Below are positions 22,958 to 52,870 of a stretch of DNA of 64,000 nt, piece by piece (position 1 is the first letter of the stretch; each line of letters begins with the position of its first letter). The stretch covers positions 345,001 through 409,000 of the forward strand of contig JAOEUK010000001.1 of assembly GCA_028382965.1 (NCBI GenBank). The letters are read 5' to 3'. The stretch comes from Candidatus Puniceispirillum sp. GTDB lineage: Bacteria > Pseudomonadota > Alphaproteobacteria > Puniceispirillales > Puniceispirillaceae. The notes beneath the pieces were generated by a model, which saw only the letters and a list, made by a program, of their open reading frames with translations, searched no databases and was not told the origin of the DNA. The position numbers and the translations under genes were made by a program.

Positions 22958-23803
22958 TTACTTAAGAACCGCAAAACTCTTAAGCGCTTCACCGTGAAGC
23001 AACTCCATCGCTTGACGTCTATATTTAAAAGCTTTAGCTGTCGTCAGCATTTTGTAATTCCGAGGTCTAGGTAGATCTATTTTAATAACAGTTTGAACTG
23101 TCGTGGGCTTATTTGAGAGAATAACCAAGTTGTCGGCCAAGAAAATTGCTTCATCAATTTCTGAAGTCACAAATATATTTGTTTTTTGGTTTTCATCAAA
23201 AAGCTCGAGGAAGAACTCCTGCATCAAGCTACGCGACATTGCATCAAGTCCACGAAAAGGCTCATCCATGATCATCACAGTTGGTTCATTTATGAGAGCA
23301 CGGGCTAGTTCAGCTCGGCGTTGCATGCCACCAGATAGCTGAATGGGATACTTGTTCATAAATTCGCCAAGTCCAACTTTAATTAGTAAGTCTTCCGCTT
23401 CTCTTACAAGGCTAGGACCTTTTTTATCACCCCTCATCTTGGGACCAAAAGTGACGTTTTGGAGTGTCGTCTGCCACGGAATCAACGCTGTTTCCTGGAA
23501 AACCACCATCCTATCTTTCGCCGGCCCAGTAATCTCTTTACCATCAATTAAAGCTCTGCCCTCATCAGGTTTTTCAAAACCTGCCAGTAAGTTAACTAAA
23601 GTTGACTTACCACACCCTGATGGGCCAACGATAACAGTCAACTCGCCGGCTGGAAACTCAACAGATATGTTTTTTAAAACATTATCAGAAGCCCATTCTT
23701 CACCATAAGATTTAGAGACATTTTTTAGTTCTACCAATGAGCTGGTTAACTTCTTAGCTTTGGCAGAACTAGATGCCTTAGTTATTGTTTTTGGCGTACT
23801 CAT
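22958..23803 (-). CDS. Sulfonate/nitrate-type ABC transporter ATPase, second copy
   Basis: The 281-residue NitT/TauT-family ATPase has Walker A GPSGCGKST, Q-loop FQETALIPWQT, signature LSGGMQRRAELARAL, Walker B VMIMDEPFRGLD and a late S-E-I-D-E-A where most relatives have T-H-D-x-x-E-A (the switch His is replaced by Glu: FVTSEIDEAIFL). Loss of the switch His suggests a degenerate nucleotide site, so this protein may form an asymmetric pair with the other ATPase. It follows the second permease in the operon. Confidence 0.88.
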   Translation of the reverse strand: MSTPKTITKASSSAKAKKLTSSLVELKNVSKSYGEEWASDNVLKNISVEFPAGELTVIVGPSGCGKSTLVNLLAGFEKPDEGRALIDGKEITGPAKDRMVVFQETALIPWQTTLQNVTFGPKMRGDKKGPSLVREAEDLLIKVGLGEFMNKYPIQLSGGMQRRAELARALINEPTVMIMDEPFRGLDAMSRSLMQEFFLELFDENQKTNIFVTSEIDEAIFLADNLVILSNKPTTVQTVIKIDLPRPRNYKMLTTAKAFKYRRQAMELLHGEALKSFAVLK

Positions 23804-23860
23804 AAAAATTCTCCGGTATCGCGAAATCGATATGTTTGGACCTACTACGGTGGCAAAGGG

Positions 23861-24673
23861 TTAGAACAGGCGCCGCCAGGGCATGAAATGGTAACCAATT
23901 TTCCTAATAGCGCTAGATGATAAATAGCCAGCAATACCAATTGAAATCATTCCAACTACAATTTGTTCAAGTGAACCACCCATGTAAGAGCTCCAGATAA
24001 AGAAGCCAAGACCGCCACCACCCTGGGTGCCACCGCCAGAAATCATCTCTGCAGCAAGAACAACTTCCCAAGTTATGCCCATGCCGACTGCCGCTCCAGT
24101 GAAGATAGAGGGCAATGTTCCAGGCAAAACAATTTTCCAGAATAAATCAAATTGACTGGCGCCCATTGACTGTGCAGCCCTTAAGTAGCTGATATCAATG
24201 TTTCTAGCCCCACCAAGTACGTTGATTACAATTGTAAAAAATGCGCCAAGAAAGGTAACGAATGCAATGGACATCTCGTTTGTTGGCCAAAAAATTAACG
24301 ATGCAGGAACCCAGGCTAAGGGAGGTATCGGCCGTAAAATTTCAAACGGAGGAAAAAACACACCACGGAAGTAACGGTTTACAGCAAGCAACAATCCAAA
24401 AGGTATGCCAATGATCATAGCAACTATGAAACCCGTTATTACCCGACTAAAGCTGGCAACCCAACTCATCCAGTAACCAACTTTGGGAACCACTCCGAGG
24501 AAAGCCACAAAAACATCTGCTGGTGGAGGAACCAAGCCTATTCCAAGCATGTCATAGCCGGTCCACTCATCGAGTTGCGACCCAACATGCCAAATGATTA
24601 CAAAAACAATAATCGCACTAACACCACGACGACCCGTTGTGTTTCCAAATAATTTCTGTAAAAAATTTGTCAT
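23861..24673 (-). CDS. Sulfonate/nitrate-type ABC permease, second copy
   Basis: The protein has about 270 residues from ATG 24673 (a TTG one codon earlier). It has the TauC/SsuC inner-membrane permease pattern: six hydrophobic segments and the EAA-like loop YLRAAQSMGASQFDLFWKIVLPGTLPSIFTG (about 160-190). It pairs with the ATPase genes on either side and with the second permease at 25637-26509. It would form part of the channel for a sulfonate, most likely methanesulfonate in this context. Confidence 0.88.
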   Translation of the reverse strand: MTNFLQKLFGNTTGRRGVSAIIVFVIIWHVGSQLDEWTGYDMLGIGLVPPPADVFVAFLGVVPKVGYWMSWVASFSRVITGFIVAMIIGIPFGLLLAVNRYFRGVFFPPFEILRPIPPLAWVPASLIFWPTNEMSIAFVTFLGAFFTIVINVLGGARNIDISYLRAAQSMGASQFDLFWKIVLPGTLPSIFTGAAVGMGITWEVVLAAEMISGGGTQGGGGLGFFIWSSYMGGSLEQIVVGMISIGIAGYLSSSAIRKIGYHFMPWRRLF

Positions 24674-24737
24674 CAATTTACCTATTTGTATTGTCAGTTA
24701 TTTGTTTATTAAAAATGTTTAAGCGCTTATCAATCTT

Positions 24738-25586
24738 TTAAGCCATCTCCCGTTCACCGGCTTTGAAAGCTTTTACAGCTTCTTCATGAACAGCATCATT
24801 AACTTCTACAAGAAGTTTTCTGAACTCTTCAGACGACTGCGTTTCAAATGAACGAGGGCGGGGAATCTTAACTTCAATTGTCTTTTTTAGCTGGCAAGGA
24901 CGTGTTGTGACAACATGAACTTTATCACCTAGGAAGATTGCTTCCTCGAGGTCATGAGTAATAAAAAATATGGTGACACCAGTGCGATCATATGTTTCGA
25001 GCAGCGATTCATGCATGATCTGCTTGGTTAAAGCATCCATTGCTCGATATGGCTCATCCAATAAAAGTACTTTTGGGTTATTGATTAATGCCCGAACAAT
25101 TTCTGCACGCCGTGCCATACCAGAAGACACCTCACCGGGAAACTTAGTGATAAAGCTGCCTAAGCCTGCGTCAGCAAGCATATGCCCTGCTTTATCCATG
25201 GCTTCTGAGGCTGACATAGCTTTCTGAACTGTTGGACCATAAGCTACGTTTTCTTGCAGGGTCTTCCATGGAAAGAGTGCGCCATGTTGAAAAACAACCA
25301 TACGCTCAGCACTCTGCTCAGCTTTTGGCTTTCCTGGTCCACACAATAATTCACCATCTAGGTGAATACTGCCTTCCGTTATGGAATGAAAACCAGCAAT
25401 GGAGTTTAAAAGAGTGGTTTTGCCGCAGCCAGATGGACCTACTATCATGCATACTTCACCACCAGCTATCTCCATGGAACAATTGTCAACAGCCATCACA
25501 TTCACCCCTGTAGGGTCATAGACCTTTGTGACATTTTTAATGCTTATTTCACCTTTTTTGGCAGTTTTAGAAGTTTTTTTAGCCAT
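24738..25586 (-). CDS. Sulfonate/nitrate-type ABC transporter ATPase, first copy
   Basis: The protein has about 282 residues, start chosen at ATG 25586 (MAKKTSK); an ATG five codons earlier is possible. Walker A GPSGCGKTT, FQHGALFPWKTL, signature VSSGMARRAEIVRAL, Walker B LLLDEPYRAMD and the switch FFITHDLEEAIFLGD are all intact. The signature reads S-S-G-M rather than L-S-G-G/M. Together with the partner ATPase (switch His lost) this suggests one competent and one altered ATP site if they form a heterodimer. Confidence 0.88.
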   Translation of the reverse strand: MAKKTSKTAKKGEISIKNVTKVYDPTGVNVMAVDNCSMEIAGGEVCMIVGPSGCGKTTLLNSIAGFHSITEGSIHLDGELLCGPGKPKAEQSAERMVVFQHGALFPWKTLQENVAYGPTVQKAMSASEAMDKAGHMLADAGLGSFITKFPGEVSSGMARRAEIVRALINNPKVLLLDEPYRAMDALTKQIMHESLLETYDRTGVTIFFITHDLEEAIFLGDKVHVVTTRPCQLKKTIEVKIPRPRSFETQSSEEFRKLLVEVNDAVHEEAVKAFKAGEREMA

Positions 25587-25636
25587 GACTTTTACTTTCA
25601 AATCCGTGATTAATATCTATGTTTAAGTGCGCGTTC

Positions 25637-26509
25637 TTACCGCCCTTGTTGGGCAAGCTCCTTAACATGCCACGCCATAAGCTTATTGCCGAGGGCTCTC
25701 ACGCAACCAGAGCTGAAATATCCAATGAAACCAAGGGTAATCATAGCAATCACCATTGGGACAGTGACATTATTCATATATGCATCAACAATGAGATAGC
25801 CCAAGCCTAAGTCACCAGACACCATCTCGGCTGCCACAAGTGAGAACCAAGCTACACCAATTGATATTTGAAGGCCGGTGAAAATAAATGGCAGGGCGCC
25901 AGGTACTACAACGTTTTTAAAAACGTCCCACTTTGAAGATCCAAGACATCCAGCAGCTCTAAAATACTCTTCATCAATCGAATCAACACCAAGCATAGCG
26001 TTCAGGGCTGTTACAAAAAAGGATGCTAAGGTAGCAAGAAAGATCACTGGACCTTCAAATCCTGGGAGTAATAAGATAGATAAAGGAACCCAAGCTAGAA
26101 TTGGAATTGGCCTTAGAGTTTCAATAATTGGGAACACGTAGTCTCGGACTTTTCTTGACCACCCCATAAAAAGACCAAGCGGAACGCCCAAACCAGTGGC
26201 GAGGCCAAAGGCAATTAAAATACGTTGGCAACTAACTCTTATATGCTCGTAATATTCTTGAGTAAAAATAGAGATTCCCTGAAACGGTTCGAAAGCAAAC
26301 CAGTCTTTTGAGATAGCAACAGGACCTGGTAATTTACTAAAACGCCAAATCTGCAATCCTTCACAAAGCACCCAATAAGCGAATAACCAAAGAAATATAC
26401 CAAAAACGGTCAAATATGGGTCAACACTCGTAAAATTCTTTTTGATACGATAAAAAACCATATCAATGCCTTGAGGTTCACTTATTCTTGTGTTTGCTGC
26501 ATTACTCAT
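25637..26509 (-). CDS. Sulfonate/nitrate-type ABC permease, first copy
   Basis: A 290-residue TauC/SsuC-family permease. It has six membrane segments and the loop YFRAAGCLGSSKWDVFKNVVVPGALPFIFTG. It lies downstream of the binding protein gene, separated by a strong hairpin. With the second permease it likely forms a heteromeric channel. In the known methanesulfonate import system (MsmEFGH) the layout is binding protein, ATPase and two permeases; here an extra ATPase is present. Confidence 0.88.
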   Translation of the reverse strand: MSNAANTRISEPQGIDMVFYRIKKNFTSVDPYLTVFGIFLWLFAYWVLCEGLQIWRFSKLPGPVAISKDWFAFEPFQGISIFTQEYYEHIRVSCQRILIAFGLATGLGVPLGLFMGWSRKVRDYVFPIIETLRPIPILAWVPLSILLLPGFEGPVIFLATLASFFVTALNAMLGVDSIDEEYFRAAGCLGSSKWDVFKNVVVPGALPFIFTGLQISIGVAWFSLVAAEMVSGDLGLGYLIVDAYMNNVTVPMVIAMITLGFIGYFSSGCVRALGNKLMAWHVKELAQQGR

Positions 26510-26633
26510 AGTTTGAACTCCGGTGCTTTGTTGGCCCCTCTGGTACAGTAAGTCTGACTCACGGCTTCGTAAAAATTATAGACAGTGTAATTACTGCGCT
26601 TAATTTATAATTAATAAATAAATGGAGGTAAAT

Positions 26634-26663
26634 AAGTAAGGGCTAATTTCTTAGCCCTTACTT
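26634..26663 (-). terminator. 13-bp stem with GAAA loop after binding protein gene
   Basis: AAGTAAGGGCTAA (26634-26646) and TTAGCCCTTACTT (26651-26663) are perfect inverted repeats. In the transcribed (minus) direction the loop is GAAA. There is no strong T-run after it, so it is more likely an mRNA-stabilising hairpin or a partial attenuator that gives more binding protein than permease. Confidence 0.7.
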
Positions 26664-26677
26664 TCTATAGGTTGTTT

Positions 26678-27784
26678 CTATTTAGCTATAATACGACCAA
26701 CAGGGGTTTTGAGGCCACGCTTTTCGAGCACGCGCTCGGCAAACTGACCCATCACACCTTCTGGACGAATTTGTGCAGCAGCAGCTGGCTTTTTCTTGAG
26801 GCTATAAAGAAAAGCAGTTGCGTCGCGAAGTAGTGTTTTCGCATCGTCGCTGATTACAAAATCAAGTTGTAGCTTGGTTGTGCCTGACATTGGCGAGTCG
26901 TAAAGACTTGCCTTGAGAACAGATGCATCAATCTGCTCTGTCTGTGCTTCTGCCATCGCTGCGATTGCGTCAGCATTACCTGGGTTAGCAACAAATTCCT
27001 GAGCGTCAAGCTCAGCTTCTAACCAACCCATTACTGCGTCTGGACGCTGAGAAATCAAGTCGTTTAACATGACCATGAAAGCACCGTCCTGCAAACCAAA
27101 GTCTTCACCTGATGCGGCGCGGCGAGCAATGCCGGCCTTAACCATTTTAGTAGCTGTTGGCTCCCAAATGGCTGCTGCGTCTAGTTTTCCAGCCCGAAAA
27201 TTAGTTGTGATAACTTCAATGTTCTGGTTCAGGTATTTTTTTGGTTTAATGCCAGCAGATTTAAATGCGGCTTGTGCAAATCTGTCAGTACAAGCACCGT
27301 GTGGAGCAGATGTAATTTTTCCATCCATCCATTTAACGGCAGCAACACCATTAGCAAATTTAGGTGCATCATTTCTTACTAGGAAAATGTTGCACTGCTG
27401 CTTAGATGTTCCCAAAGCGGCAACAATTCGAATGTCCGTGCCGCCACGCTCGGGCAAATATTTAAAAGTAGAAGCAATTGCGGGCATGTCACCCATGTAA
27501 CCAATGTGCTGCTTTTCACCTGCCATCGCGTTCACGATAACTGATCCTTGGAGTCCAACTTGGAACTCAGCAGTAGAACCTGCTGGAAGGTGTTTCTTCC
27601 AAAAGCTCTTGCCATTATTTACCACACCAGTCCATGATTCGGTGTAATACGGCTGATAGCCGATCACCAAATTTACTGACTCGCCAGGTTTGCCAAAATC
27701 TGTGGCTGCTGAGGCAAACGTCGGCAATGCCGCGATGGACCCTGCGACCACAAGACTGGTAAGGTTTTTCATAGATATCTTCAT
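26678..27784 (-). CDS. Sulfonate-type ABC substrate-binding protein (MsmE-like)
   Basis: The 368-residue protein has a Sec signal (MKISMKNLTSLVVAGSIAAL...FASA, cleavage about residue 26) and a SsuA/TauA/NrtA-type two-lobed domain: SVNLVIGYQPYYTESWTGVV, GYMGDMPAIAS (about 90-105), APHGACTDRFAQAAFKSAGI, FRAGKLDAAAIWEPTATKMV. GGGAGA precedes the ATG. It is divergent from the Rieske oxygenase genes and is the first gene of its transporter operon, so methanesulfonate is the most likely ligand; taurine or another sulfonate is the alternative. Confidence 0.85.
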   Translation of the reverse strand: MKISMKNLTSLVVAGSIAALPTFASAATDFGKPGESVNLVIGYQPYYTESWTGVVNNGKSFWKKHLPAGSTAEFQVGLQGSVIVNAMAGEKQHIGYMGDMPAIASTFKYLPERGGTDIRIVAALGTSKQQCNIFLVRNDAPKFANGVAAVKWMDGKITSAPHGACTDRFAQAAFKSAGIKPKKYLNQNIEVITTNFRAGKLDAAAIWEPTATKMVKAGIARRAASGEDFGLQDGAFMVMLNDLISQRPDAVMGWLEAELDAQEFVANPGNADAIAAMAEAQTEQIDASVLKASLYDSPMSGTTKLQLDFVISDDAKTLLRDATAFLYSLKKKPAAAAQIRPEGVMGQFAERVLEKRGLKTPVGRIIAK

Positions 27785-28070: not shown

Positions 28071-30503
28071 ATGCCTAATGAAACACAAATGGATGAAGCT
28101 TTGACCGCCAACACGCTGAAACCTGTGTCTGATAAGCAGGTGATGGCAGCTGTTGATGAACAATTCCTAGAAGAACAAGTTAGGATCTTTCAAAACGTCT
28201 GGGTTCCTGTTTGTCACGAATCAGAGTTGCCTGAGCCTTACGACTTCAGGACATCTAGCATTGGCAATGAAAATATAATAATTTGCCGAGCCCCAGACGG
28301 TAAAATCAACGCACTACTCAATGTATGTCCTCATCGTGGAATGCTTATTGAGCGTCGACCGCAAGGCAGTTTTATGGAGGGTCAAGCATCAGGAAACCCT
28401 AAACGCATAACTTGTATGTTTCATGCATGGCAATTCGATATGCGTGGAAACTGCGTTTACGTGGCGAGAGAGAAAGAGGGTTATCAGGATCGTTTCTGCA
28501 AAGATGACGCTGGTTTGAGGCGACTGCGCTGCCAAGTTAAGTTTGGTGGTTTTGTTTGGGTCAATTTAAGCGATCAGCCGGTGGCTTCACTTGATGAGTG
28601 GGCTGGAGAATCATTTGCAAAAATTAATGGTGCCATCGACAGCGAGCCGCTAGAAGTTTTTCACTATCATAAAAAAATAATCCAAACGAATTACAAATCA
28701 AATAACGACGAAATTTTGAGCTCAAATGAACAGTTTGCCAACACAATATTTCACGAATATGGACATATAACTTGCGATTCGCATGATAATAGCGAGATAA
28801 ACACAGGCCATCAGAACAAAAAATTGAGCGGAGAAAAATCCAAAACGGTGATTGGGCAAGAGTTTCCAGATGTTGATGCTAATCATTCATACTCTATTAA
28901 TATGTTCCCTGGTTTCTCATTCAGTTTAGATGGATCCGTGTTAAACCTCACTACAATTACGCCCTTAAGTGAAAATGAGGTTTTGTTGGAGCAAAGAGGT
29001 CTCGCTCCAAAAAGTGATGCGACTGAAGTTCGCGGACAAAGGACTAAATTATACAATGCGAATCTGGGACCTTTTCGGCTTGGCCGCCCAGCGGCTAACA
29101 ATGAGAGGTCTGAGACTTCTTCAGATAGCCATGCAAAGTTAAACCATTACCATAATGAATGGGCTCGATGGATGGACCAACACCCAAACAAAGAGAGTCG
29201 TTTGGCTGTTGTAGGCGCGCCTTCCAAAAAATTGGAACAGATTGATGATTCTGCTAGCTTGACCGGCCCTCATGTCATCATCGTGGGCGCAAGCCACGCA
29301 GGTATAGCTTTTGGAGACAAGCTGCGTAAAAATGGTTTTGAAGGGCGTATCACTATGTTTGATCGGCAGGTCGGTGGGCCAATGGAGAGGCCTCCACTGT
29401 CGAAGGGCTTTTTGCTAGGCGGCGGTGAAAAAGTAGAGTCAAAGTCTCTTTTAAGGCAAAAGAAATGGTATAAAACTCAAAAAATAAAACTTAAAACTCA
29501 ATCAAATGTAGAAAAAATAGACCTTAATGAAAAAACTGTGACTGTTAACCAAGGTGATAAAATACATTTTGACAAATTAGTGATAGCGAGTGGCGCCATT
29601 CCGCGTGAGTTGCCATCAACAAAAGGTATGGGTAATACGTTTACACTCAGACAACCATCGGATGCTAATGCCATTCGTCAAACAGCTAATAATTCAGACA
29701 GTGTTGTGATAATTGGCGGTGGCTACATAGGCCTTGAAGTCGCTGCATCGCTTAATCAAAAAGGAATGACCGTCACAGTAATTGAGGCAGCTGATAGAAT
29801 TCTTGCCAGGGTTGCGAGCAAACCTCTTGCTGATCACCTGTCACAACTTCACGATGATAACGGCGTTTCCATAATAACTGGTGTGGGTGTTCAAGACATA
29901 AATCAGGATGATGGAATCTTTGAGAGTGTAACTTTAGCCAATGGCAAAACCATAAAGGGAGATATGCTGATTACGGGCATAGGTGTACTTCCAGACAGTA
30001 AGCTTGCATCTGACGCGGGTTTAGAGACTCTGCGGGAAGATGGTGGGCCCATTCTTGTCGATGATTTGATGCAAACAAGTCATAAAGATGTTTTGGCCAT
30101 TGGTGATGTTGCGTTGCGGCGTAGCCAGACCATGGCTGTAGAATCTGTCCACAACGCTCAGGAAACAGCGGCGGTGGCGGCATCAACTTTTACAGGCGTA
30201 GCTCCACCAGTTATTCAAACTCCATGGTTCTGGTCGGATCAGTATGATGCAAAGCTGCAATCAGTTGGCATTGTTCCCGTGCTTGATGAGGAGGCTTATC
30301 AAGTGACGCGTCCGGGAAGACGGGGCAAAGGAGTTTCTTTTTGGACTTACAAGGGAGCAGAACTTATTGCGGTCGAAGTTGTTAATGATCCTGCAACTTA
30401 TATGGAGGCTCGCCAATGTCTTGATACGAATCAGTCTCCTGACCCTAAACAGATTTCTAACCCTTTATTTTCACCAGTCGACAGCGGTGGCGCGCGGTCA
30501 TGA
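28071..30503 (+). CDS. MsmA-like Rieske subunit fused to ferredoxin reductase
   Basis: An 810-residue protein (start at ATG 28071 after GAGGAT). Residues 1-390 are a Rieske oxygenase alpha-type part with Cys86-x-His88-x26-Cys115-x-x-His118, the 26-residue spacer reported for methanesulfonate monooxygenase MsmA. The catalytic half is related to the protein at 32814-33908 (shared EVFHYHK, TNYK, FPGF, TPL). The mononuclear iron site is incomplete: an HEYGH pair (His228/His232) may remain, but the bridging acid is absent and about 20 residues carrying the C-terminal E-D ligand are deleted. Residues from about 400 form a BphA4-like ferredoxin reductase: VGASHAG FAD motif, IGGGYIGLE NADH motif near 545, and a PWFWSDQYD C-terminal domain. 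It is probably the electron-supplying partner of the split oxygenase. Confidence 0.85.
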   Translation: MPNETQMDEALTANTLKPVSDKQVMAAVDEQFLEEQVRIFQNVWVPVCHESELPEPYDFRTSSIGNENIIICRAPDGKINALLNVCPHRGMLIERRPQGSFMEGQASGNPKRITCMFHAWQFDMRGNCVYVAREKEGYQDRFCKDDAGLRRLRCQVKFGGFVWVNLSDQPVASLDEWAGESFAKINGAIDSEPLEVFHYHKKIIQTNYKSNNDEILSSNEQFANTIFHEYGHITCDSHDNSEINTGHQNKKLSGEKSKTVIGQEFPDVDANHSYSINMFPGFSFSLDGSVLNLTTITPLSENEVLLEQRGLAPKSDATEVRGQRTKLYNANLGPFRLGRPAANNERSETSSDSHAKLNHYHNEWARWMDQHPNKESRLAVVGAPSKKLEQIDDSASLTGPHVIIVGASHAGIAFGDKLRKNGFEGRITMFDRQVGGPMERPPLSKGFLLGGGEKVESKSLLRQKKWYKTQKIKLKTQSNVEKIDLNEKTVTVNQGDKIHFDKLVIASGAIPRELPSTKGMGNTFTLRQPSDANAIRQTANNSDSVVIIGGGYIGLEVAASLNQKGMTVTVIEAADRILARVASKPLADHLSQLHDDNGVSIITGVGVQDINQDDGIFESVTLANGKTIKGDMLITGIGVLPDSKLASDAGLETLREDGGPILVDDLMQTSHKDVLAIGDVALRRSQTMAVESVHNAQETAAVAASTFTGVAPPVIQTPWFWSDQYDAKLQSVGIVPVLDEEAYQVTRPGRRGKGVSFWTYKGAELIAVEVVNDPATYMEARQCLDTNQSPDPKQISNPLFSPVDSGGARS

Positions 30504-30640
30504 CATGGCTTAAAGGTACTGAGTAGCCATTGGAGGAGATGACTCCTCTTAAATCGCACCAACAGAGTTTTGAAATCTAAAAATTGATTTTACTAAAAAT
30601 TTAAAGTTTACACTTAAGAAGTAAAGAAACGGGGAATATT

Positions 30641-31129
30641 ATGGCAGCAGATCTGGAAAGAAAAATTGAAAAGACAATCTATAAAGCCGCGCTTGCACTG
30701 GATGAACACAACTGGGCAGATTGGTTTGAGCTTTGCGACGATTCGTTTTTTTATTCCATTACCTCATTCAGCCCAGAAATAAACAAAGATATGACTTATT
30801 TTGAAGGAAATAAAAAAGAGTTAAAGGGTTTGATGGATATGCTGCCAAAGCATAATACTGATCATTCGCCCCTTCATAGACACACCTCTGTCTATACGGT
30901 TGACGTTTCAGATGACGGTAAGTCTGCGGAAGCGATAAGTTCAGTGACAGTTTATCAAAACATGCTAGATGGTATCAACTCTCACCTTGATTCTGGGGAG
31001 AGCAGACTTTTTGTTATTGGTAAGTATATTGACAAGTTCGCTATAAAAGATGGTGTTCCAAAGTTTATCAATCGTGAAGCAAAGCTTGATAATCGGCGTC
31101 TGGATAAAGGTTCGCATTGGCCAATATAA
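30641..31129 (+). CDS. msmB: Methanesulfonate monooxygenase beta subunit-like (MsmB)
   Basis: The 162-residue protein has the small-subunit fold of ring-hydroxylating and related Rieske oxygenases (NTF2-like): KAALALDEHNWADWFELCDDSFFYSITSF at the start, HRHTSVYTVDVSDDGKSAEAISSVTVYQN in the middle and a final FINREAKLDNRRLDKGSHWPI. Beta subunits stabilise the alpha3 ring and carry no cofactor. It lies between the Rieske/reductase fusion and the ferredoxin gene, as in msmABCD. The ATG follows AACGGGGAATATT. Confidence 0.8.
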   Translation: MAADLERKIEKTIYKAALALDEHNWADWFELCDDSFFYSITSFSPEINKDMTYFEGNKKELKGLMDMLPKHNTDHSPLHRHTSVYTVDVSDDGKSAEAISSVTVYQNMLDGINSHLDSGESRLFVIGKYIDKFAIKDGVPKFINREAKLDNRRLDKGSHWPI

Positions 31130-31198
31130 GACGGTGGCTTGTGCGCAATATAGTTGAATGGTGGCCAGTATATTTATTGAATTCAGAAAGTTAGCCGT

Positions 31199-31600
31199 AT
31201 GACTTGGACAAAAGTCTGTGAGAAAAGTGAAATACCAGAGGGCTCAATAAAGAAGGTTTGGGCCAGGGTGGGTAGTGGGATACCAATAGCGGTTGCCCAT
31301 CATAGATCTGGTTTTGTTGCTATACCACCAGTGTGCCCGCACCTCGAAGAGCCACTTGATGAGTCTGGACTATTGTTAGGGTGCAAACTCACTTGTACAA
31401 AACATTTGTGGTCTTGGGACTTAGAGACCTTTGAGCTTCAGGATGAAGCTGAACTCCCTTTAAAAACTTATGACCTGAAAATCGATGGAAACGATATAAT
31501 GGTCTATGTTGCTGAGCAGCTAGAATATACCTTTGATGAAGATGATGATATCGATGAAAACACCTTTTTTGATGAGGATGAGGATGACGACGTTTGGTAA
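31199..31600 (+). CDS. msmC: Rieske ferredoxin with acidic tail (MsmC-like)
   Basis: The 133-residue protein has a Rieske [2Fe-2S] domain with C-P-H (residues about 47-49), a 17-residue spacer and C-T-K-H, and a single-domain ferredoxin length. The last ~25 residues are almost all Asp/Glu (DEDDDIDENTFFDEDEDDDVW). Acidic tails are unusual for ferredoxins of this group and could steer docking to basic surfaces on its two partners. It would pass electrons from the reductase part of the fusion to the oxygenase. The ferredoxin is a separate Rieske centre, additional to the one in the fusion protein. Confidence 0.85.
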   Translation: MTWTKVCEKSEIPEGSIKKVWARVGSGIPIAVAHHRSGFVAIPPVCPHLEEPLDESGLLLGCKLTCTKHLWSWDLETFELQDEAELPLKTYDLKIDGNDIMVYVAEQLEYTFDEDDDIDENTFFDEDEDDDVW

Positions 31601-31733
31601 GCTCAGTTTGTTCACAGTCGTTTAATTCTAAAACCTAATTTTGTAAAATTTATATATTGCTTTAGCTGAGAACAGTTAACAATCAGCTTCTTCAAAATCT
31701 CCATCATTCCAATTTATTTGAAAGCGCATTTTT

Positions 31734-32558
31734 TTGACTCTTAACTGGCCTGAACCAAAAATTTTTGAGACAAGTGAGTATAAAAAGGCTCGATTTGAAG
31801 CGCATAACGCGCTCTTTTGGATGGCTCGCTGTACGCATAGCTTCTTAAAGGCTAGGGACGATCAAAAGCATATGGATTTACTTTGGCAAAGTGAATCTAA
31901 AAGCTTTAGGACAAAAATTTTTGATGGTGATTTGCAAATTGGTTTACATCTGCCTGACCTAGAACTGTATTTTTGTGAGAACGGGATCAAGGTTCCACAC
32001 AGCTTTTGGCTTGATGATAGAACACCAGCTTATGTTGAGGCTTGGTATCTTGTTGAACTTGTACACCGTGATCGTGACAGAAGTAGATTTTCAACTGATC
32101 TACCGTTTGAGTCTGCTAATATGCTTATGGGAGATACAAAAGACCATAATGCATCAGAGGTTGCTTTAGAGCTTGATGCGTTACAAAAATGCTTTGAAAG
32201 AGCTGCTGGATTGTTTGTTAATGTTTCTCAGTCGTTATTAAAAAATGGGTACATTGCTGAGAGCGCAAATCTAATAACCCTTAAGCCTGAATCTTTTGCA
32301 CTTACTTTGAGCTTTGAATCCTCTAAAATTAAAGAAAGTGTGATATCAATTGGCCTAAGTGCTGGTGATGAATTGCGGCCATCTCCATTTTTCTTCACCA
32401 CCACTGAGTCTGTTGTTTCAAAGAAAAACACACATGTACTCGACTTTGAAGCTGAGACTTTAATAGGATTGAATTCGGTATGTGCTAATAATGTTTCTGA
32501 CGAATCGTTAACAGAAAGATTATGTGAGAACGTTAAAGCTTTAATTAATAAGCAATAA
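31734..32558 (+). CDS. Unrecognised protein within the monooxygenase cluster
   Basis: The 274-residue protein begins at TTG 31734 with only a weak GAAAG upstream. It has no signal peptide or membrane segment. Seen features: an Arg/Asp/His-rich segment (ELVHRDRDRSRF, about 112-123), ESANMLMGDTKDHNASEV, and a C-terminal run of strands (SFALTLSFESSKIKESVISIGLS). I do not recognise the family. Its place between the ferredoxin and the iron-site subunit suggests an assembly, maturation or regulatory role for the split oxygenase. Confidence 0.55.
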   Translation: MTLNWPEPKIFETSEYKKARFEAHNALFWMARCTHSFLKARDDQKHMDLLWQSESKSFRTKIFDGDLQIGLHLPDLELYFCENGIKVPHSFWLDDRTPAYVEAWYLVELVHRDRDRSRFSTDLPFESANMLMGDTKDHNASEVALELDALQKCFERAAGLFVNVSQSLLKNGYIAESANLITLKPESFALTLSFESSKIKESVISIGLSAGDELRPSPFFFTTTESVVSKKNTHVLDFEAETLIGLNSVCANNVSDESLTERLCENVKALINKQ

Positions 32559-32813
32559 ATACTGTTTAGTTTGTTTAGCAAGGCTTTGTTAATTTTAACT
32601 CTGAGGATACAATCGTTTTTTTCCGGGCATTATGCCAAGAAACTCTAAAATTATGAGGGTTTTTGTCGTTTTATATTAGACACAGCCTATTACGCGATTT
32701 GCGGTCAATGTGAAGATGTTGTTGACATAAATGAGGTATCGCACCACATTTAATGACAGAAGTTAGAAAATTGTGAAAAAAATTGCAGAATGATTTAGAC
32801 GAGGAGTGCAAAA

Positions 32814-33908
32814 ATGCCACCAAGAAATCATAAAAATTGGTCAGCGGTTCCCAAAATTGAGCATATTTCAAGTGAATGCTACAACAATTACAGTATCTAT
32901 GAGCAAGAGCTGGAGCATATTTTTGCGAAAGTTTGGATCCCGATGTGCCATTTCAGTGAAATGGCAAATGATGGCGATTTTCGTTCTACTCAGATCGCAT
33001 TTCAGAATGTTGTGGCGGTTAACGTAAAGGGAAATGTTAAGGTTTTTTTATGCCCGTCGATTGATAGGCCTGCTGGTAACGGACTTAATGTGGACGGTCT
33101 CAAAGAACTCCACAGCGGAGTAAAGCATGGTGGTATGGTTTGGACTACTCTAGATCCTAACCCAACTCAGAGTATTGAAGAGTGGACCTGTGGTGCCTTT
33201 GATTGTATCGCAGACGCAATTGATACTGAGGATATGGAAGTTTTCCATTATCATAAAGCTATTATAGACACTAATTATAAGCTTTGGCACGACACTAATA
33301 GTGAGTTTTATCACGATTTTATGCATTATTTTAACCGTGTATCTGGCTTCAACGATGAATACTTCGCCCGTAAAAACATCCCATTTGATAATGGTCATGT
33401 AAACGTTAGCAGCTTTACAGTAAATTATGAGGAGTATGACGGGTTTGAAGATCGAGGGGAATTGTCTTTCCCGAATCTTCCACCCAACCAATGGTACATG
33501 GTAGATTTATTCCCAGGATTTAATTTCAACTTGCGCGGTAGTGCTTACAGAAGTGATAGTGTTACCCCGTTGGGCCCAAACAAAGTTCTTATTGAGTTTC
33601 GCGGTTATGGGTTGAAAAAGGATACCCCAGAAGAGCGCGCTACTCGGATTAAACATCATAATTCTATTTGGGGGCCATTTGGCCGTAATCTTCACGAAGA
33701 TTTGATTGGAGTTTCTGGTCAAGGGACAACCATGCGGGAAGGCACTGAAGCAAGAAGAATTTTGCATGGTCGCCATGAAAACTCGACTATTCACGACGAG
33801 GTTGGAATGCGTCATTATTATGAAGCTTGGGGACATCATCTTGGTGTTTCGCCAACCAATCCATTGGCATTGATAGGCAATACCCAGGATGTTATTGCTG
33901 CTGAATAA
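32814..33908 (+). CDS. MsmA-like catalytic subunit lacking the Rieske cluster
   Basis: A 364-residue alpha-subunit relative. In the region where the Rieske motif should lie it reads FLCPSIDRPAGNG: one Cys (Cys80) remains, the partner His is Ser, and the second C-x-x-H pair with its loop is deleted. The mononuclear iron site is kept: Asn154, Glu164-x-x-His167-x3-His171 and Asp296 (HEDLIGVSGQG). It therefore cannot hold its own Rieske cluster but can bind iron and oxygen. A terminator follows at 33930. Electrons would have to arrive from another subunit, most simply the fusion protein at 28071-30503. Known NdmC/NdmD split oxygenases offer a precedent. Confidence 0.85.
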   Translation: MPPRNHKNWSAVPKIEHISSECYNNYSIYEQELEHIFAKVWIPMCHFSEMANDGDFRSTQIAFQNVVAVNVKGNVKVFLCPSIDRPAGNGLNVDGLKELHSGVKHGGMVWTTLDPNPTQSIEEWTCGAFDCIADAIDTEDMEVFHYHKAIIDTNYKLWHDTNSEFYHDFMHYFNRVSGFNDEYFARKNIPFDNGHVNVSSFTVNYEEYDGFEDRGELSFPNLPPNQWYMVDLFPGFNFNLRGSAYRSDSVTPLGPNKVLIEFRGYGLKKDTPEERATRIKHHNSIWGPFGRNLHEDLIGVSGQGTTMREGTEARRILHGRHENSTIHDEVGMRHYYEAWGHHLGVSPTNPLALIGNTQDVIAAE

Positions 33909-34025: not shown

Positions 34026-34961
34026 CTACGTAGTTTTTTTCAAATATAAAAAGTTTTGTAATTCATTGTTCTCGGCCAATGATTTTCCAACTTGTTCTGT
34101 GATTTTAGTTATTGGAATTGTAGTCTCAGTTTTGACCCAGAATAGCCCTATACCTTTTTTGACGACTGGATCCTTCAACAGAATGGCCTTAGTTCCGCTG
34201 TGCAGCCCCGGCATGCGCGTGTAATGGGATGGTATAATTGTACAGAGCTCGGTGAATTGTGTTTGAAACATCAAATGTAAAATAGATTCAGACTCTATTT
34301 TTGGTATCACTGATTTCCCCGTTTGCTCAAATATTCCATCAATAATCGAACGCTCGTACATAGATGGGCGTAATAATGCGAGTGGGAGGTTGGCTGCGTC
34401 ACTCCATGTAATTTCATTTACGTTCTCAAATTCAAAGGAATCGGGCACTAATAAACTCCAGGTTTCTTCAAAAATTGGCAGAGCTTCGCACCAAGGCATT
34501 TCCTTTTTTTGATCCATGTATGTTATGGCGCAGTCCATAGAATAGTTGTCGAGACCAGTTCGCAACTCTTCATTTCCAACAAATCTGACATCGACAGACA
34601 CTAGTGGATATGCCTTCCGAATTCGTTGCAAAATAATCGGTAACACTGGAGACATTGAGGGTATTGCGCCGAGTCTTATGGTTCCATCAAGTCGGTTTTG
34701 CATTTCAGAAATGGTGTCTTGCATTGCCGTGCAATTTGCGAGAATTATTCTTGCCCAGTGCGCAACTTGTTCACCTTCGTCAGTTATACCAAAGAGTCTT
34801 TGACCGCGACCTCTCTTAAATAAAGTCACCCCAAGCTCAAGCTCAAGTTGCTTAATGCCATTGGACAGGCTCGGTTGTTTTACGTTGCAACGAGACGCAG
34901 CACGACCGAAGTGATCTTCTTCAATAACAGCGATTAGATATTCGAGCTGCTTCAAAACCAT
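34026..34961 (-). CDS. LysR-type transcriptional regulator
   Basis: A 311-residue LysR regulator. N-terminal helix-turn-helix LKQLEYLIAVIEEDHFGRAASRCNVKQPSLSNGIKQLELELGVTLFKR, then the substrate-binding domain with SMSPVLPIILQRIRKAYPLVSVDVRF and DCAITYMDQ. The ligand may be a sulfonate or a C1/sulfur intermediate. It is divergent from the TauE gene at 35178 and convergent with the monooxygenase operon, so either or both could be its target. A 7-bp inverted repeat lies in the shared upstream region. Confidence 0.9.
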   Translation of the reverse strand: MVLKQLEYLIAVIEEDHFGRAASRCNVKQPSLSNGIKQLELELGVTLFKRGRGQRLFGITDEGEQVAHWARIILANCTAMQDTISEMQNRLDGTIRLGAIPSMSPVLPIILQRIRKAYPLVSVDVRFVGNEELRTGLDNYSMDCAITYMDQKKEMPWCEALPIFEETWSLLVPDSFEFENVNEITWSDAANLPLALLRPSMYERSIIDGIFEQTGKSVIPKIESESILHLMFQTQFTELCTIIPSHYTRMPGLHSGTKAILLKDPVVKKGIGLFWVKTETTIPITKITEQVGKSLAENNELQNFLYLKKTT

Positions 34962-35177: not shown

Positions 35178-35921
35178 ATGGAGCTAATTTTCCTTTATAT
35201 TTTTTGTGGATTGATAGCTGGAATGCTCATAGGCATCGCAGGTATAGGTGGTGTTGTGCTCGTTCCATTGTTGATCTATCTTGCTGGCGCGGATATTCAT
35301 ACTAGCGTTGCAGCGGCCATTTTTTCTTTTTTAATTTCAGGCACTATTGGCACTATAATTTATTCTAGAAGAGGAGTAATTGATTGGCCTGTTTTGAGAA
35401 GGCTTTCTCTGGGCGCGGTTCCTGGCACTTTGTCAGGTTCTATGATTTTATTTTATATTGAAGCTGAATTATTACGTATCTTTATTGCTGTGATGATTGT
35501 TGTTTCTGCATTGCGGGAAATTATACTCCACAAGCAGATTGATAGCCCTCGCAGCTCAACGATTTCTGATAATAAATATGCTATTATTGGCTTTGTGACA
35601 GGACTCTTATCAGCCCTAAGTGGCACAGGGGGGCCTTTAATTTTGATTCCAATTTTATCGTTTTTGGCAGTGCCAACGTTGACTATTATTGGTTTGGCAC
35701 AGGTGATTCAGGTGCCCGTGGCATTGTTTGCGACCTTTGGCAACACTTGGAATAATTTGGTTGACTGGGAGATGGCAGGATTCATATCAATTGGTGTGGC
35801 TTTTGGAAGCTTTTTTGGCGGCCAGATCTCAAAAGGTATTCCAGTTAGGGGAATTAGAAGGTTTGTGGCGCTATTATTGTTTGCCTCTGGTGTAATGATG
35901 GTGTTTTCGATTATTTTTTAA
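35178..35921 (+). CDS. TauE/SafE-family anion permease
   Basis: The 247-residue protein has about eight membrane segments. The family repeats are visible: FCGLIAGMLIGIAGIGGVVLVPLL near the start and GLLSALSGTGGPLILIPIL in the second half. TauE/SafE proteins move sulfite, sulfoacetate or other sulfur anions across the inner membrane. Placed after the monooxygenase genes, it fits export of sulfite made from a sulfonate. It is shorter than the paralogue at 40817-41821. Confidence 0.82.
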   Translation: MELIFLYIFCGLIAGMLIGIAGIGGVVLVPLLIYLAGADIHTSVAAAIFSFLISGTIGTIIYSRRGVIDWPVLRRLSLGAVPGTLSGSMILFYIEAELLRIFIAVMIVVSALREIILHKQIDSPRSSTISDNKYAIIGFVTGLLSALSGTGGPLILIPILSFLAVPTLTIIGLAQVIQVPVALFATFGNTWNNLVDWEMAGFISIGVAFGSFFGGQISKGIPVRGIRRFVALLLFASGVMMVFSIIF

Positions 35922-36106: not shown

Positions 36107-36994
36107 ATGAGCGAAGAGAAACCAAGACGTAAGGTCACCTTTAAAACACTACAAAAGAAAATGGCAGCTGGCGAGCCAATAACCCAACTCGCTGCTTACG
36201 ATTACAGAACAGCTGTTGTTGCTGACAGAATGGGAATGGATATTCTGTGTGTTTCAGACACTGGTGGCATGATTCTTTTTGGTCATCAAAACACCACTTC
36301 GGTAAGCTTTGACGAATGCATGATGATGGCAAAGGCTATTGACCGGGGATCAAAATATGGCATGCGCATGGTTGACATGCCATATTGGAGTTTTCACGTC
36401 TCCAAAGAGCAAGCTGTAGAAAATGCTGGGCGCTTTGTCCATGAAGCTAACGCTGAGGTGATGAAATGTGAAGGTAATCGCCATCATGTTCCAGCCATCG
36501 AAGCAATCGTAAGCGCGGGCATACCTGTTCAGGGCCATATTGGGATTACTCCAATGCGGATGCCACAGCTTGGCGGCTTTATTGCCCAGGGCAAAACCGC
36601 TGATCGCGCCAAAGAGCTGATTGATGACGCTAAAGCCATGTATGATGCTGGTTGTTTTTCAATTCTCTGCGAAGTTACCACCTCTGAGGTTGCAGAGTAT
36701 TTGGCAGAAATTCTTCCTGTTCCGGTAATTAGTCTGGGTGCGGGTAACTGTGCAGATGGTGTCCATATAATCTCGTCAGATCTTTTTCACCTATGGGAAG
36801 AGCACGTGCCAAAGCATTCACGTATTTACACTGATCTCATTCCGATCATGGAAGATGTGATTACACGCTACATGGATGATGTAAAAACAAGAAATTATCC
36901 AGGGCCTGAAAACACCATTAAAATGCCAGAAGATGAGCTCAGAAAGTTTGCAAAAGACATGAAGTGGGAGCGCAAGCTAGATGAATTGGGTTAA
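36107..36994 (+). CDS. PanB-like methylene-THF hydroxymethyltransferase family protein
   Basis: The 295-residue protein is a ketopantoate hydroxymethyltransferase relative. Matches: AYDYRTAVVADRMGMDILCVSDTGG (Asp-Thr for the usual Asp-Ser metal site), VDMPYWSF (usual DLPF.SY), MKCEGN (Lys kept), GHIGITPMRMPQLGGF, ILCEVTTSE (general-base Glu kept) and VISLGAGNCADG. The substrate-contact regions differ (usual P after the Glu is missing). Normal PanB moves a hydroxymethyl group from methylene-THF to 2-oxoisovalerate. Its place before fhs and folD suggests a C1-linked role rather than only pantothenate synthesis. GGGAGG precedes the ATG. Confidence 0.75.
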   Translation: MSEEKPRRKVTFKTLQKKMAAGEPITQLAAYDYRTAVVADRMGMDILCVSDTGGMILFGHQNTTSVSFDECMMMAKAIDRGSKYGMRMVDMPYWSFHVSKEQAVENAGRFVHEANAEVMKCEGNRHHVPAIEAIVSAGIPVQGHIGITPMRMPQLGGFIAQGKTADRAKELIDDAKAMYDAGCFSILCEVTTSEVAEYLAEILPVPVISLGAGNCADGVHIISSDLFHLWEEHVPKHSRIYTDLIPIMEDVITRYMDDVKTRNYPGPENTIKMPEDELRKFAKDMKWERKLDELG

Positions 36995-37280
36995 GGGTAT
37001 TGGCTCCAATTAGAATTTGTGTTGGGCTCTTTACAGGCTTTTAGATATTGCCGCCTTGTTAATGAGCCCGACACGCACTTTTAGGCTTTTAAATATTTTT
37101 TGGAATTTTTCTGGCCAACAGCACCTGAAGTATTTGGATCCCACTACTAATATTTGATCGACAAAACGTCTCTGTGTTTTCAAAAGAAGAACGCAAATCA
37201 GCAGTCTGATGTGCTGGTCGTATTGAGAAGTCAAGCCTTCGTAAAAGAATAATCACCGACGCCAATTTGGGGAAAAACTG

Positions 37281-38948
37281 ATGAGTGATATTGAAATTGC
37301 ACGCGCAGCAAAAAAGAAACCGATTTTTGAAATTGGAAAATCTATAAATATACCAGAGTCTGATTTGTTGCCATTTGGCCATGACAAGGCAAAGGTAAGT
37401 CAAAGTTTTATAAATTCAGTCCAAGACCGGAAAAATGGTAAATTGATTCTAGTTACTGCCATTAACCCAACCCCTGCTGGTGAGGGGAAGACAACAACAA
37501 CAGTCGGCCTTGGTGATGGTTTAAATCGCATAGGCAAAAAAGCAATGATTTGTATTCGTGAAGCTTCTCTTGGCCCAAACTTTGGGATGAAAGGTGGAGC
37601 TGCTGGGGGTGGTTACGCGCAAATTGTGCCGATGGAAGATATGAACCTCCATTTTACAGGTGATTTCCATGCTATTACCTCAGCTCACTCACTTCTATCA
37701 GCAATGATTGACAACCACATTTACTGGGGCAATGAGCTTTCTATCGATTTACGCCGGGTTGTTTGGCGCCGAGTTGTTGATATGAACGATCGGGCCTTAC
37801 GCCAAATCACCGCATCGTTGGGTGGCGTTTCGAACGGTTTTCCGCGCGAAGCTGGATTTGACATTACCGTGGCTTCTGAAGTAATGGCAATTTTATGTCT
37901 TGCAAAAGATCTGACAGATCTTCAAAAGCGTCTTGGCGATATGATCGTAGCTTATCGTCGTGACAGATCGCCAGTGTTTTGCAGGGATATCAAAGCTGAT
38001 GGAGCAATGACAGTTCTTTTGAAAGATGCAATGCAGCCAAATTTAGTTCAAACACTGGAAAATAACCCGGCTTTTGTCCATGGTGGTCCATTTGCTAACA
38101 TCGCGCATGGTTGCAATTCTGTTATTGCCACAACAACAGCACTGAAATTATCTGACTACGTTGTGACTGAGGCAGGATTTGGCGCAGACCTTGGTGCTGA
38201 AAAATTCTTGAACATAAAATGTAGAAAAGCTGGCTTGTCACCCTCGGCTGTGGTGCTTGTTGCGACAGTTCGGGCTATGAAGATGAATGGCGGAGTTTCT
38301 AAAAACGACCTTAATGACGAAAATGTTGATGCGGTAAAGGCAGGCTGTCCAAATCTTGGCCGTCACATAGAAAATCTTAGATCATTCGGTGTCCCCGTGA
38401 TTGTAGCAGTTAATCATTTTGTTAAAGACACCGACGCTGAAATTGACGCTGTTATTGAATATTGTTCGGGAATGGGTGCTGAGGCCATTGTATCTAAACA
38501 CTGGGCAGATGGGTCCGCGGGTTCTGAGGCATTGGCTAAACGCGTTGCTGAAATCGCTGATAATGATGCTGGAAATTTTGCACCTATCTATCCAGACGAT
38601 ATGTCCCTGGCTGATAAAATTCAGACCATCTGCAAGAATATTTATAGGGCTGATGAAGCAGTTATGGATAAGAAAATCCTTGATCAATTGAAAGAGTGGG
38701 AAGACCAGGGCTACGGTAATCTGCCTGTCTGCATGGCAAAAACTCAATATAGTTTTTCAACTGATCCAAGCTTGCGTGGCGCTCCAACGGGTCATGTGGT
38801 TCCAGTGCGTGAGGTTCGTATCAGCGCTGGAGCTGGTTTTGTTGTCGCTGTATGTGGTGAAATAATGACGATGCCTGGTTTACCCCGTCATCCAGCTGCA
38901 GAGAGTATCTGTATCAATGCAAGTGGTGAGATTGACGGTTTGTTCTAA
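37281..38948 (+). CDS. fhs: Formate-tetrahydrofolate ligase
   Basis: The 555-residue protein has the expected family length and motifs: [19 protein letters not shown] (ATP P-loop), [26 protein letters not shown] (folate/nucleotide site), [30 protein letters not shown] and [15 protein letters not shown] at the end. It interconverts formate plus THF and ATP with 10-formyl-THF. With FolD and its paralogue downstream it forms a THF route for C1 at the formaldehyde/formate level, as expected for a methanesulfonate user that releases formaldehyde. Confidence 0.95.
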
Positions 38949-39028
38949 TAAAAAATATGTTGCGGACATCACAATGTTTCTTTAGTGCCAGTGATTTTTA
39001 TTCAACCCAAGTTTAAGTGAGATACTCG

Positions 39029-39922
39029 ATGGCAGCCAATATTATTGATGGGAAAGCATTTGCGGCAAAGGTTAGAGCTAAAATAGCAACGAATGTCAGT
39101 ACTTTAAAAATGGAGCACGGTGTGGTTCCAGGTCTTGCAGTTGTACTTGTAGGAGAGGATCCAGCATCCCAGGTTTATGTTCGCTCAAAAGGAAAACAGA
39201 CCATCGAAGTTGGTATGAACTCAGTAGAGCATAAGCTACATGAAAATACATCTGAAGACATATTGTTAGCTCTGATCGACGATCTGAATAAAGATGATGC
39301 TGTTCACGGTATCCTTGTCCAACTGCCGTTGCCAAAACAGCTTAACGAGGCTTTGGTCATTAATAGGATTGCCCCAGAAAAAGATGTTGATGGGTTCCAC
39401 ATAGCTAATGTGGGGCTTTTGGGTACGGGACAAAAATCGATGGTTCCATGTACTCCTCTGGGCTGCCTGCTAATGCTGCGTGATTATCATGGCACATTGT
39501 CTGGAAAGAGCGCTGTCGTTGTAGGGCGCTCCAACATTGTGGGCAAACCCATGGCGCAACTGCTTTTGAATGATAGCTGTACAGTCACCATAGCCCACTC
39601 CCGCACTAAGGAATTGCAGGAAGTTGTAAAACAGGCCGATATAGTAGTAGCTGCAGTTGGCCGTCCTGAAATGCTTACTGGTGAATGGATCAAGCCTGGA
39701 GCCACCGTGATAGACGTGGGTATTAACCGCGTTGACGCGGCGGATGGTAAGACAAAACTTGTTGGCGATGTGGATTATGAGAGTTGTGCAAAAGTTGCTG
39801 GGGCTATAACCCCAGTGCCTGGTGGTGTTGGCCCTATGACAATTGCGTGCCTTTTGGCCAATACCGTCACGGCATGTTGTCGGATTAATAATATTCCAGA
39901 ATTTGAAGGGTTTTCATCTTGA
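39029..39922 (+). CDS. folD: Methylene-THF dehydrogenase/cyclohydrolase
   Basis: The protein has about 297 residues from ATG 39029 (a GTG four codons earlier is possible). Active-site motifs are normal: [10 protein letters not shown] (Tyr and Lys), ILVQLPLP (Gln), PEKDVDGF (Asp), [18 protein letters not shown] (NADP site) and [11 protein letters not shown]. It converts 5,10-methylene-THF to 10-formyl-THF via methenyl-THF. It is probably co-transcribed with fhs upstream. The paralogue begins on its stop codon (TTGA overlap). Confidence 0.95.
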
Positions 39923-40800
39923 GCGTAACCCAACTGGATCGTAGGCACCTCTTTGGGGCCCCGGTCCGGAAAAAGATTCTTGATGAAGTTCGTGCCTATT
40001 TGCAAACGGCTGGACCTATAGGCAAACTTGTTTCCATTTCTATTGGTGGTAGTGCAGAGGTAAGTGTCTACATTCGTAATCAGGCACGGCTAGCTGCTGA
40101 ATTGGGAATTAAATTTGACCAACAATGTTGGGACAGCAATATTTCCCAAGATACCTGTAAGGCTCGCATTCAAGATATGAATGATAGTTCTGGAGTTTTA
40201 GGCGTAATTTTACAGCGCCCGTTGCCAGAGCACATCAATGTAAGGTCATTGCAATCAGCGATCCACCCTTTGAAAGATGTTGAAGGTATGAATCCAGCAT
40301 CAATTGGTAATATTGTTTATTCAGACATAGCTCTGGTGCCATGCACGGCTGCGGCCTCTATTGAAATGATCAAGGCTACAAAGCTTAACCTTGAAGGCCT
40401 TGAAGTGGTGATGATTGGCCATTCTGAAATTGTTGGTCGACCTGTGGCAATGATGTTGATGGCTGAAGGTGCAACCGTAACTGTTTGCCACCATATGACA
40501 AGATCTGTTGCCATGCATTCTCGGCGTGCTGATGTTGTTCTTGTCGCCGTAGGCTCGCCTCATTTGGTTGGGGCAGAAATGATTAAGCCTGGTGCAGCGG
40601 TGATAGATATTGGTATCAATCAAATTCGGAATGACGATGGTACAACTAAAGTTGTTGGTGATGTGGATACAGCTGCTGTGACTGAAGTTGCTGGGTGGGT
40701 AACGCCTGTACCTGGCGGTGTTGGCCCTGTAACAGTGGCTATTCTAATGCGTAACGCTGTTGTTGCCCATCAACGACAGCAAAAAAATGGTTGGCTATAG
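39919..40800 (+). CDS. FolD paralogue with altered active site
   Basis: A 293-residue FolD-family protein starting at TTG 39919, overlapping the folD stop. The NADP domain ([18 protein letters not shown]) and end motif ([11 protein letters not shown]) are intact, but the Tyr-x-x-x-Lys pair is VYIRNQ (Lys to Gln) and KDVDG is KDVEG (Asp to Glu). The Gln of the I-L-x-Q-x-P motif is kept. In studied FolD enzymes this Lys is important for the cyclohydrolase step, so this paralogue may be dehydrogenase-only, or form a heterodimer with FolD. It is about as long as FolD, so it is not a truncated remnant. Confidence 0.85.
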
Positions 40801-40816
40801 AAGTGGTGTAGAAACA

Positions 40817-45400: not shown

Positions 45401-45432
45401 AAAATACTCTCCCTTAAGAACGTCGATGTCTT

Positions 45433-45927: not shown

Positions 45928-45952
45928 TTTTATCTCCTGTGGATTTCAAATA

Positions 45953-46738: not shown

Positions 46739-46802
46739 TTTCAAACTTCTCCGGATAATGACTGATTTTAAAATCAACTATTTCTATAATTCACCTTAAT
46801 AT

Positions 46803-47963: not shown

Positions 47964-48083
47964 TTCAAAAGTTCCCCTACCTAGATTTCTGATTCATTAA
48001 GCATATGACCCGATAGATTCTTGCTACGAGAAAATAACCCTATAGTTATATCCTATCGGATCAAATAACGATATCAGCCTCAA

Positions 48084-52866: not shown

Positions 52867-52870
52867 TTTT

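Follow-up and report, generated by a model that had tools for sequence, protein, structure and literature searches.

Two genes in a 64,000-nucleotide stretch of Candidatus Puniceispirillum sp. (positions 345,001 to 409,000 of contig JAOEUK010000001.1, assembly GCA_028382965.1; hereafter the window) encode paralogous alpha-type subunits of a Rieske oxygenase, termed O1 and O5, each of which keeps the metal centre that the other has lost. O1 and O5 likely make up a single split Rieske oxygenase of the methanesulfonate monooxygenase type, one half each, a reading to which we assign a probability of about 0.82. In the SAR116 lineage the pairing of O1 and O5 is obligate, their complementary ligand sets are fixed and selected, no other intact partner is encoded in the genome, and the genes lie in a sulfonate, one-carbon (C1) and sulfite context; from these observations we infer a physical hetero-oligomer, its electron path and its substrate. 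If so, an abundant marine lineage has turned a textbook one-chain enzyme into two proteins that depend on each other, and the same order still contains both a single-chain relative and an intermediate form with partial erosion. Since donor and acceptor halves are separate proteins, the pair would also offer a natural system for a direct test of cross-subunit electron transfer from Rieske cluster to iron.

Complementary losses in O1 and O5

Among 136 genomes searched across the order, 12 carry O5, as 13 gene copies of which two reside in genome G088. O1, or O1 fragments at contig ends, accompanies O5 in all 12, the co-occurrence that a preliminary description of this DNA had proposed to look for, and an intact MsmA-type alpha subunit was not detected in any of them. 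Ligands were tallied over 12 aligned O1, 12 aligned O5 and 81 single-chain MsmA rows (SAR116 MED-G04 counted twice, as L074 and L082), with O1 residues of the window numbered from the start at 28071. The preliminary description had read intact Rieske ligands (Cys86, His88, Cys115 and His118) and a lost iron site, bridging acid and E-D ligand included, in the first protein, and a C-P-S motif, a deleted second Rieske pair and retained Glu164, His167, His171 and Asp296 in the second; both readings hold for the two proteins of the window. In 12/12 O1-type proteins the four Rieske ligands and the spacer of 26 residues persist and every iron ligand is gone; 12/12 O5-type proteins have lost three of the four Rieske ligands and keep all iron ligands. 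Both sets are complete in 81/81 single-chain MsmA rows, save for one ambiguous residue X. The same losses recur in 12 split sets, and chance or sequencing error is therefore excluded.

Alignment with single-chain MsmA locates the deletions. In O5, which holds C80-P-S82, the lost block takes in the second half of the Rieske motif. In O1, the helix bearing the bridging acid and both His ligands is deleted, and a C-terminal deletion of 21 alignment columns around the E-D ligand, previously estimated at about 20 residues, removes the Asp ligand. In its predicted structure the O1 alpha part resembles the alpha subunits of Rieske oxygenases (best E 1e-17), and the model is disordered or of low confidence at residues 210-262, where the iron helix was lost. 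The O1 of genome G078 retains a degenerate iron helix (NHDRTIKFHQDFMK) and is a natural intermediate. The HEYGH segment of O1 (228-232), tentatively taken at first for a remnant iron-ligand pair, was ruled out as such: it aligns with an FD(N/H)GH motif on the C-terminal side of the iron helix (D192-N-G-H195 in O5), the true ligand segment being deleted.

The undivided state persists in the same order. SAR116 MED-G04 (G128) encodes an intact single-chain MsmA, 52% identical to O1 and 55% identical to O5, in the same gene neighbourhood, and in a tree of the Rieske domain O1 groups with MED-G04 at only moderate support (0.83). The genome under study (2.38 Mb, 99.6% complete) was searched for an intact MsmA elsewhere that might do the job, a possibility raised in the preliminary description, and none was found with a Rieske profile, a catalytic-domain profile or a single-chain MsmA query. 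The Rieske profile matches O1, the small ferredoxin, the cytochrome bc1 Rieske protein beside cytochrome b (contig C12) and a frameshifted oxygenase on contig C23; the catalytic-domain profile matches only O5 and the broken C23 gene, and the MsmA query only O1, O5 and that gene. The C23 gene (G000:C23:122851-123875) resembles the GbcA/CntA type, is unrelated to O1 and O5, and is the only other alpha-type oxygenase in the genome.

Selection acts on each retained half. Pairwise ratios of nonsynonymous to synonymous substitution rates (dN/dS, Nei-Gojobori), usable only for pairs with unsaturated dS, are 0.009-0.018 for the O1 Rieske domain and 0.005-0.009 for the O5 iron domain, next to 0.009-0.015 for the small Rieske ferredoxin, 0.029-0.059 for the O1 reductase and 0.067-0.205 for the dead iron domain of O1. 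Mean identity is 91% in the O1 Rieske domain versus 45% in the dead iron domain. Few parts of the locus are as constrained as the Rieske half of O1 and the iron half of O5, and the O1 iron domain is clearly relaxed. A Rieske centre without its own iron and an iron site without its own Rieske centre, both under selection, are best explained by mutual use. The fixed complementary losses, the constant co-occurrence in SAR116 and the selection on each kept site strongly support the original proposal of two alpha paralogues dividing the metal centres.

O1 carries a further departure from MsmA. The protein is 810-815 residues long, and its alpha-type part of ~395 residues is followed by a complete flavin adenine dinucleotide (FAD) ferredoxin-NAD reductase, closest to rubredoxin, putidaredoxin and biphenyl-dioxygenase ferredoxin reductases. 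MsmD (346-347 residues), which MED-G04 has, is absent from all split loci and from the genome under study, where the best match covers 81 residues at E 1.6e-4. Two loci with intact MsmA, L113 and L127, encode a separate reductase with 55-57% identity to the C-terminal half of O1, and since MsmD was not detected in either locus, an O1-type reductase plausibly replaced MsmD before its fusion to the alpha part. In genome G091, O1 (L073, 15189-17575) reads as two overlapping open reading frames (ORFs), alpha part and reductase, which meet at a TCATGA stop/start overlap; this may be a frameshift error or a true re-separation.

The iron half in phages

Relatives of O5 also exist outside bacterial chromosomes. 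The annotated MsmA of phage HMO-2011 (GU557055, phage1322_61), 72% identical to O5, is of the O5 type, with the Rieske lobe deleted and the iron ligands kept; it differs from O5 in that its gene lies in a phage genome with no partner subunit. In IMG/VR, at least 530 viral stretches encode a relative. Ligands were checked in the 80 most similar of these, recruited with search peptides free of the scored ligands: the bridging Glu, both His and the Asp are kept, and the Rieske ligands absent, in 80/80. At least one neighbour homologous to a neighbour gene of HMO-2011 is found in 69/80 of these loci. A scan of viral contigs with an O1 alignment yielded no O1-type copy; its 55 matches are all of 28-32% identity or short pieces at contig ends, none holds a Rieske motif, and the two shortest read as truncated O5.

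The simplest reading would be that the phage supplies the iron half only and relies on the host Rieske half during infection, much as cyanophages supply photosystem subunits. In catalytic-domain trees, single-chain MsmA stands apart from a group made up of O5 and the viral copies, and chromosomal O5 is nested in viral diversity. Viral monophyly was recovered in 0/200 bootstrap trees, yet the approximately unbiased (AU) test does not reject it (p 0.158), so that the case for a descent of chromosomal O5 from phages is no more than suggestive. We regard as evenly balanced the broader proposition that HMO-2011-type phages, which are very common in the sea, carry an oxygen-activating half working only with the electron-carrying half of the host, and that the chromosomal SAR116 iron half, given its nesting, may descend from a phage lineage.

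Alternatively, phage O5 could have a role other than joining host O1: it could be a structural protein, for instance, or a decoy subunit that poisons the enzyme of the host. The location of the HMO-2011 gene among virion and lysis genes, and the lack of any other msm-cluster gene in the 80 viral loci, would suit such a role, which we nonetheless consider unlikely, as the bridging acid and the three iron ligands, needless for a decoy or a structural protein, are kept in every viral copy checked.

Henriques and De Marco report that strain IMCC1322 has two annotated MsmA, only one of which holds a Rieske motif, and that the motif is missing from many MsmA of marine and viral origin, that of HMO-2011 included; the two IMCC1322 proteins are not linked as complementary halves in the available part of that paper (PMC4433239). 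The split proposed here would explain the MsmA without Rieske motif of SAR116, ocean metagenomes and HMO-2011 as functional half-enzymes rather than misannotations, and would imply that the auxiliary metabolic gene recorded in viruses as methanesulfonate monooxygenase can act only in hosts having the other half.

The proposed two-chain enzyme and its alternatives

In the two-chain enzyme that we propose, electrons would pass from NADH to the FAD domain of O1, then to the small Rieske ferredoxin (31199-31600) and on to the Rieske cluster of O1. They would next cross the protein interface through the bridging acid E164 of O5 to the iron at H167, H171 and D296, where O2 would hydroxylate the methyl group of methanesulfonate, yielding formaldehyde and sulfite. 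In an ordinary alpha3 ring, the iron of each subunit receives its electrons from the Rieske cluster of a neighbour. The preliminary description expected a mixed ring to work still, but a mixed three-member ring would have at most one working site, because only an O1-to-O5 junction could function. The hetero-oligomer would most likely consist of three heterodimers together with MsmB; a trimer of this kind, or a ring with an even number of members, is favoured over a simple mixed alpha3 assembly because the sites would be better used. A trimer of heterodimers has been suggested for the two-chain chlorophyllide a oxygenase (CAO) of Micromonas (PMC9615114).

Several points weigh against the two-chain enzyme. 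Modelled as a monomer, the O1 alpha part reaches only moderate confidence, with a predicted local distance difference test score (pLDDT) of 60.6 and a predicted template modelling score of 0.65. In G088 and G091, O5 lies ~10 kb from O1 and co-expression is not assured. No report of growth on methanesulfonate by an IMCC1322-type SAR116 strain was found in the literature searched. Lastly, O5, having no Rieske cluster, might take electrons directly from the small Rieske ferredoxin. As a separate observation, G088 carries two complete copies of the split cluster (L071 on contig C45 and L072 on contig C16), and the spacing of ~10 kb applies to each.

The split complex could be real and yet act on another small sulfonate or methylated sulfur compound, which seems to us distinctly unlikely. 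The importer binding protein is SsuA-like only, and O5 with its viral relatives forms a clade separate from all single-chain MsmA. Against these stand the catalytic domain, 77-80% identical to that of single-chain MsmA, the importer binding protein, ~91% identical to that of MED-G04 with its standard msmABCD set, the adjoining C1 and sulfite genes, and the 26-residue spacer (CXH-X26-CXXH), the published signature of methanesulfonate monooxygenase (PMC4433239).

The direct electron route into O5 can be taken further, to an O5 independent of O1: the small Rieske ferredoxin would dock where the Rieske lobe was deleted and feed the iron, and O1 would be a mere reductase with a vestigial alpha part. 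The strong conservation of the ferredoxin and the selection on the O1 reductase domain itself accord with this scheme. It is improbable, given that no part of O1 is as constrained as its Rieske domain (a dN/dS of about 0.01, and the twofold difference in identity from the dead domain noted above) and that O1 keeps the MsmA-specific spacer, for which a mere reductase has no need. Decay of a duplicated MsmA with both copies dying, or an assembly artefact, fits the eroding O1 iron domain and the two ORFs of G091 but is barely credible, and was rejected, in view of the same losses in 12 gene sets and of kept halves that rank among the most conserved parts of the locus, with dN/dS <0.02 in both the Rieske and the iron domain.

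Known systems and gene context

MsmABCD is the methanesulfonate monooxygenase of Methylosulfonomonas and Filomicrobium. The SAR116 system shares with it homologous alpha, beta and ferredoxin components, a divergent sulfonate importer, and the CXH-X26-CXXH motif, present in O1 (12/12) and absent from O5. It differs in that its alpha subunit is two chains with one metal centre each, and in that a glutathione-reductase-type FAD reductase fused to the Rieske half takes the place of MsmD. Two defining features, a single alpha subunit with both sites and an MsmD, were looked for, and neither is present, so that the split system is not a standard member of MsmABCD; it likely works in an MsmABCD-like manner.

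Splitting of Rieske oxygenases is already known. The two-chain CAO of Micromonas (MpCAO) is alike in architecture only, its chains each reportedly keeping a different metal centre (Kunugi et al. 2013); it belongs to eukaryotic chlorophyll synthesis and another subfamily, with no fused reductase and no phage-borne half. In the caffeine N7-demethylase NdmC/NdmD/NdmE, the Rieske domain moved from the oxygenase NdmC to the reductase protein NdmD (PMC4408171). This precedent was invoked in the preliminary description, which missed the reductase fusion on O1, and the resemblance proves even closer than was thought: O5 lacks its Rieske lobe, and O1 joins a Rieske alpha subunit and a reductase on one polypeptide. 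The SAR116 Rieske half is, however, an alpha paralogue of almost full length whose iron domain has eroded, its reductase consists of Pyr_redox_2 and Reductase_C domains instead of the flavin mononucleotide and [2Fe-2S] domains of NdmD, and its cluster encodes a beta subunit. In the SAR116 system the two features meet in one catabolic enzyme of bacteria: the alpha subunits form a complementary pair, and the Rieske member of the pair is joined to a reductase. A phage-borne half comes in addition; no description of this system was found in the literature searched.

No counterpart of NdmE, a protein like glutathione S-transferase (GST), was found in the SAR116 cluster. The candidate U274 was provisionally set aside on present evidence, its AlphaFold2 model being confident (pLDDT 86) and without a fold match in the PDB, GST included. 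None of the 15 members of the U274 family has a Pfam match, and homologues (E<1e-15) occur in 14/80 intact msm loci, some of which have the gene immediately after msmD.

A second case of a Rieske-less alpha subunit occurs in another alphaproteobacterial family, in which a complete alpha gene is directly followed by a paralogue without Rieske lobe and with iron ligands kept (L077 8100-10330 in G294, L078 8317-10652 in G468, L079 8325-10720 in G164, and a partial set, L289, in G516). The Rieske decay is partial in the G164 paralogue, which shows C-P-Q-C and retains C-x2-H. Downstream of the pair lie genes for a beta subunit, an MsmD-type reductase, a ferredoxin and a Dpp-type transporter.

The features of the window are listed below. 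The importer, TauE, C1 and sulfite genes fit an oxidation of methanesulfonate, the presumed substrate, to formaldehyde and sulfite.

Features of the split oxygenase locus and its surroundings (window coordinates)
Feature	Position	Strand	Support or remark
O1 (ORF1), Rieske-bearing alpha half fused to FAD ferredoxin-NAD reductase	28071-30503	+	Pfam Rieske 2.3e-17; ORF can open at 28056; kept in 12 split sets
O1 Rieske cluster segment, C86-P-H88, 26-residue spacer, C115-M-F-H118	28326-28424	+	
O1 eroded iron-binding (catalytic) domain, beta core kept; bridging acid, both His and Asp ligands deleted	28638-29225	+	
O1 fused FAD reductase domain, standing in for MsmD	29271-30500	+	Pyr_redox_2 1.1e-62, Reductase_C 2.9e-18
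Beta subunit (MsmB-like)	30641-31129	+	Weak Ring_hydroxyl_B/SnoaL matches; 69% identity to MED-G04 beta
Rieske ferredoxin (MsmC-like)	31199-31600	+	PF00355 8.9e-10; 60% identity to MED-G04 MsmC
U274, uncharacterised accessory protein of some msm clusters	31734-32558	+	
O5 (ORF5), iron-bearing, Rieske-less alpha half	32814-33908	+	Ring_hydroxyl_A PF00848 1.3e-6; no Rieske match
O5 bridging acid and iron ligands E164, H167, H171 (E-x2-H-x3-H)	33303-33326	+	
O5 iron ligand D296	33699-33701	+	
Divergent ATP-binding cassette (ABC) sulfonate importer (permeases, ATPases; msmEFGH-like)	22958-27784	-	ABC_tran, BPD_transp_1
Importer binding protein	26678-27784	-	SsuA family 4.4e-23
LysR regulator, kept across split loci	34026-34961	-	
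TauE/SafE sulfite exporter	35178-35921	+	Second copy 40760-41821
C1/tetrahydrofolate (THF) genes: PanB-like, formate-THF ligase, two FolD	36107-40800	+	
Sulfite oxidation genes: AprBA and ATP sulfurylase (-); SoeABC-like molybdopterin/Fe-S/DmsC set (+)	43547-53785		

Two points on the C1 genes deserve separate mention. The PanB-like ketopantoate hydroxymethyltransferase (36107-36994) is a second copy in the genome, the other lying on contig C36; with 93-97% identity across SAR116 relatives, versus 38-51% for neighbours such as TauE, it is perhaps a dedicated C1 carrier enzyme. The two genes for FolD-type methylene-THF dehydrogenase/cyclohydrolase stand in tandem at 39017-40800, with a four-base overlap.

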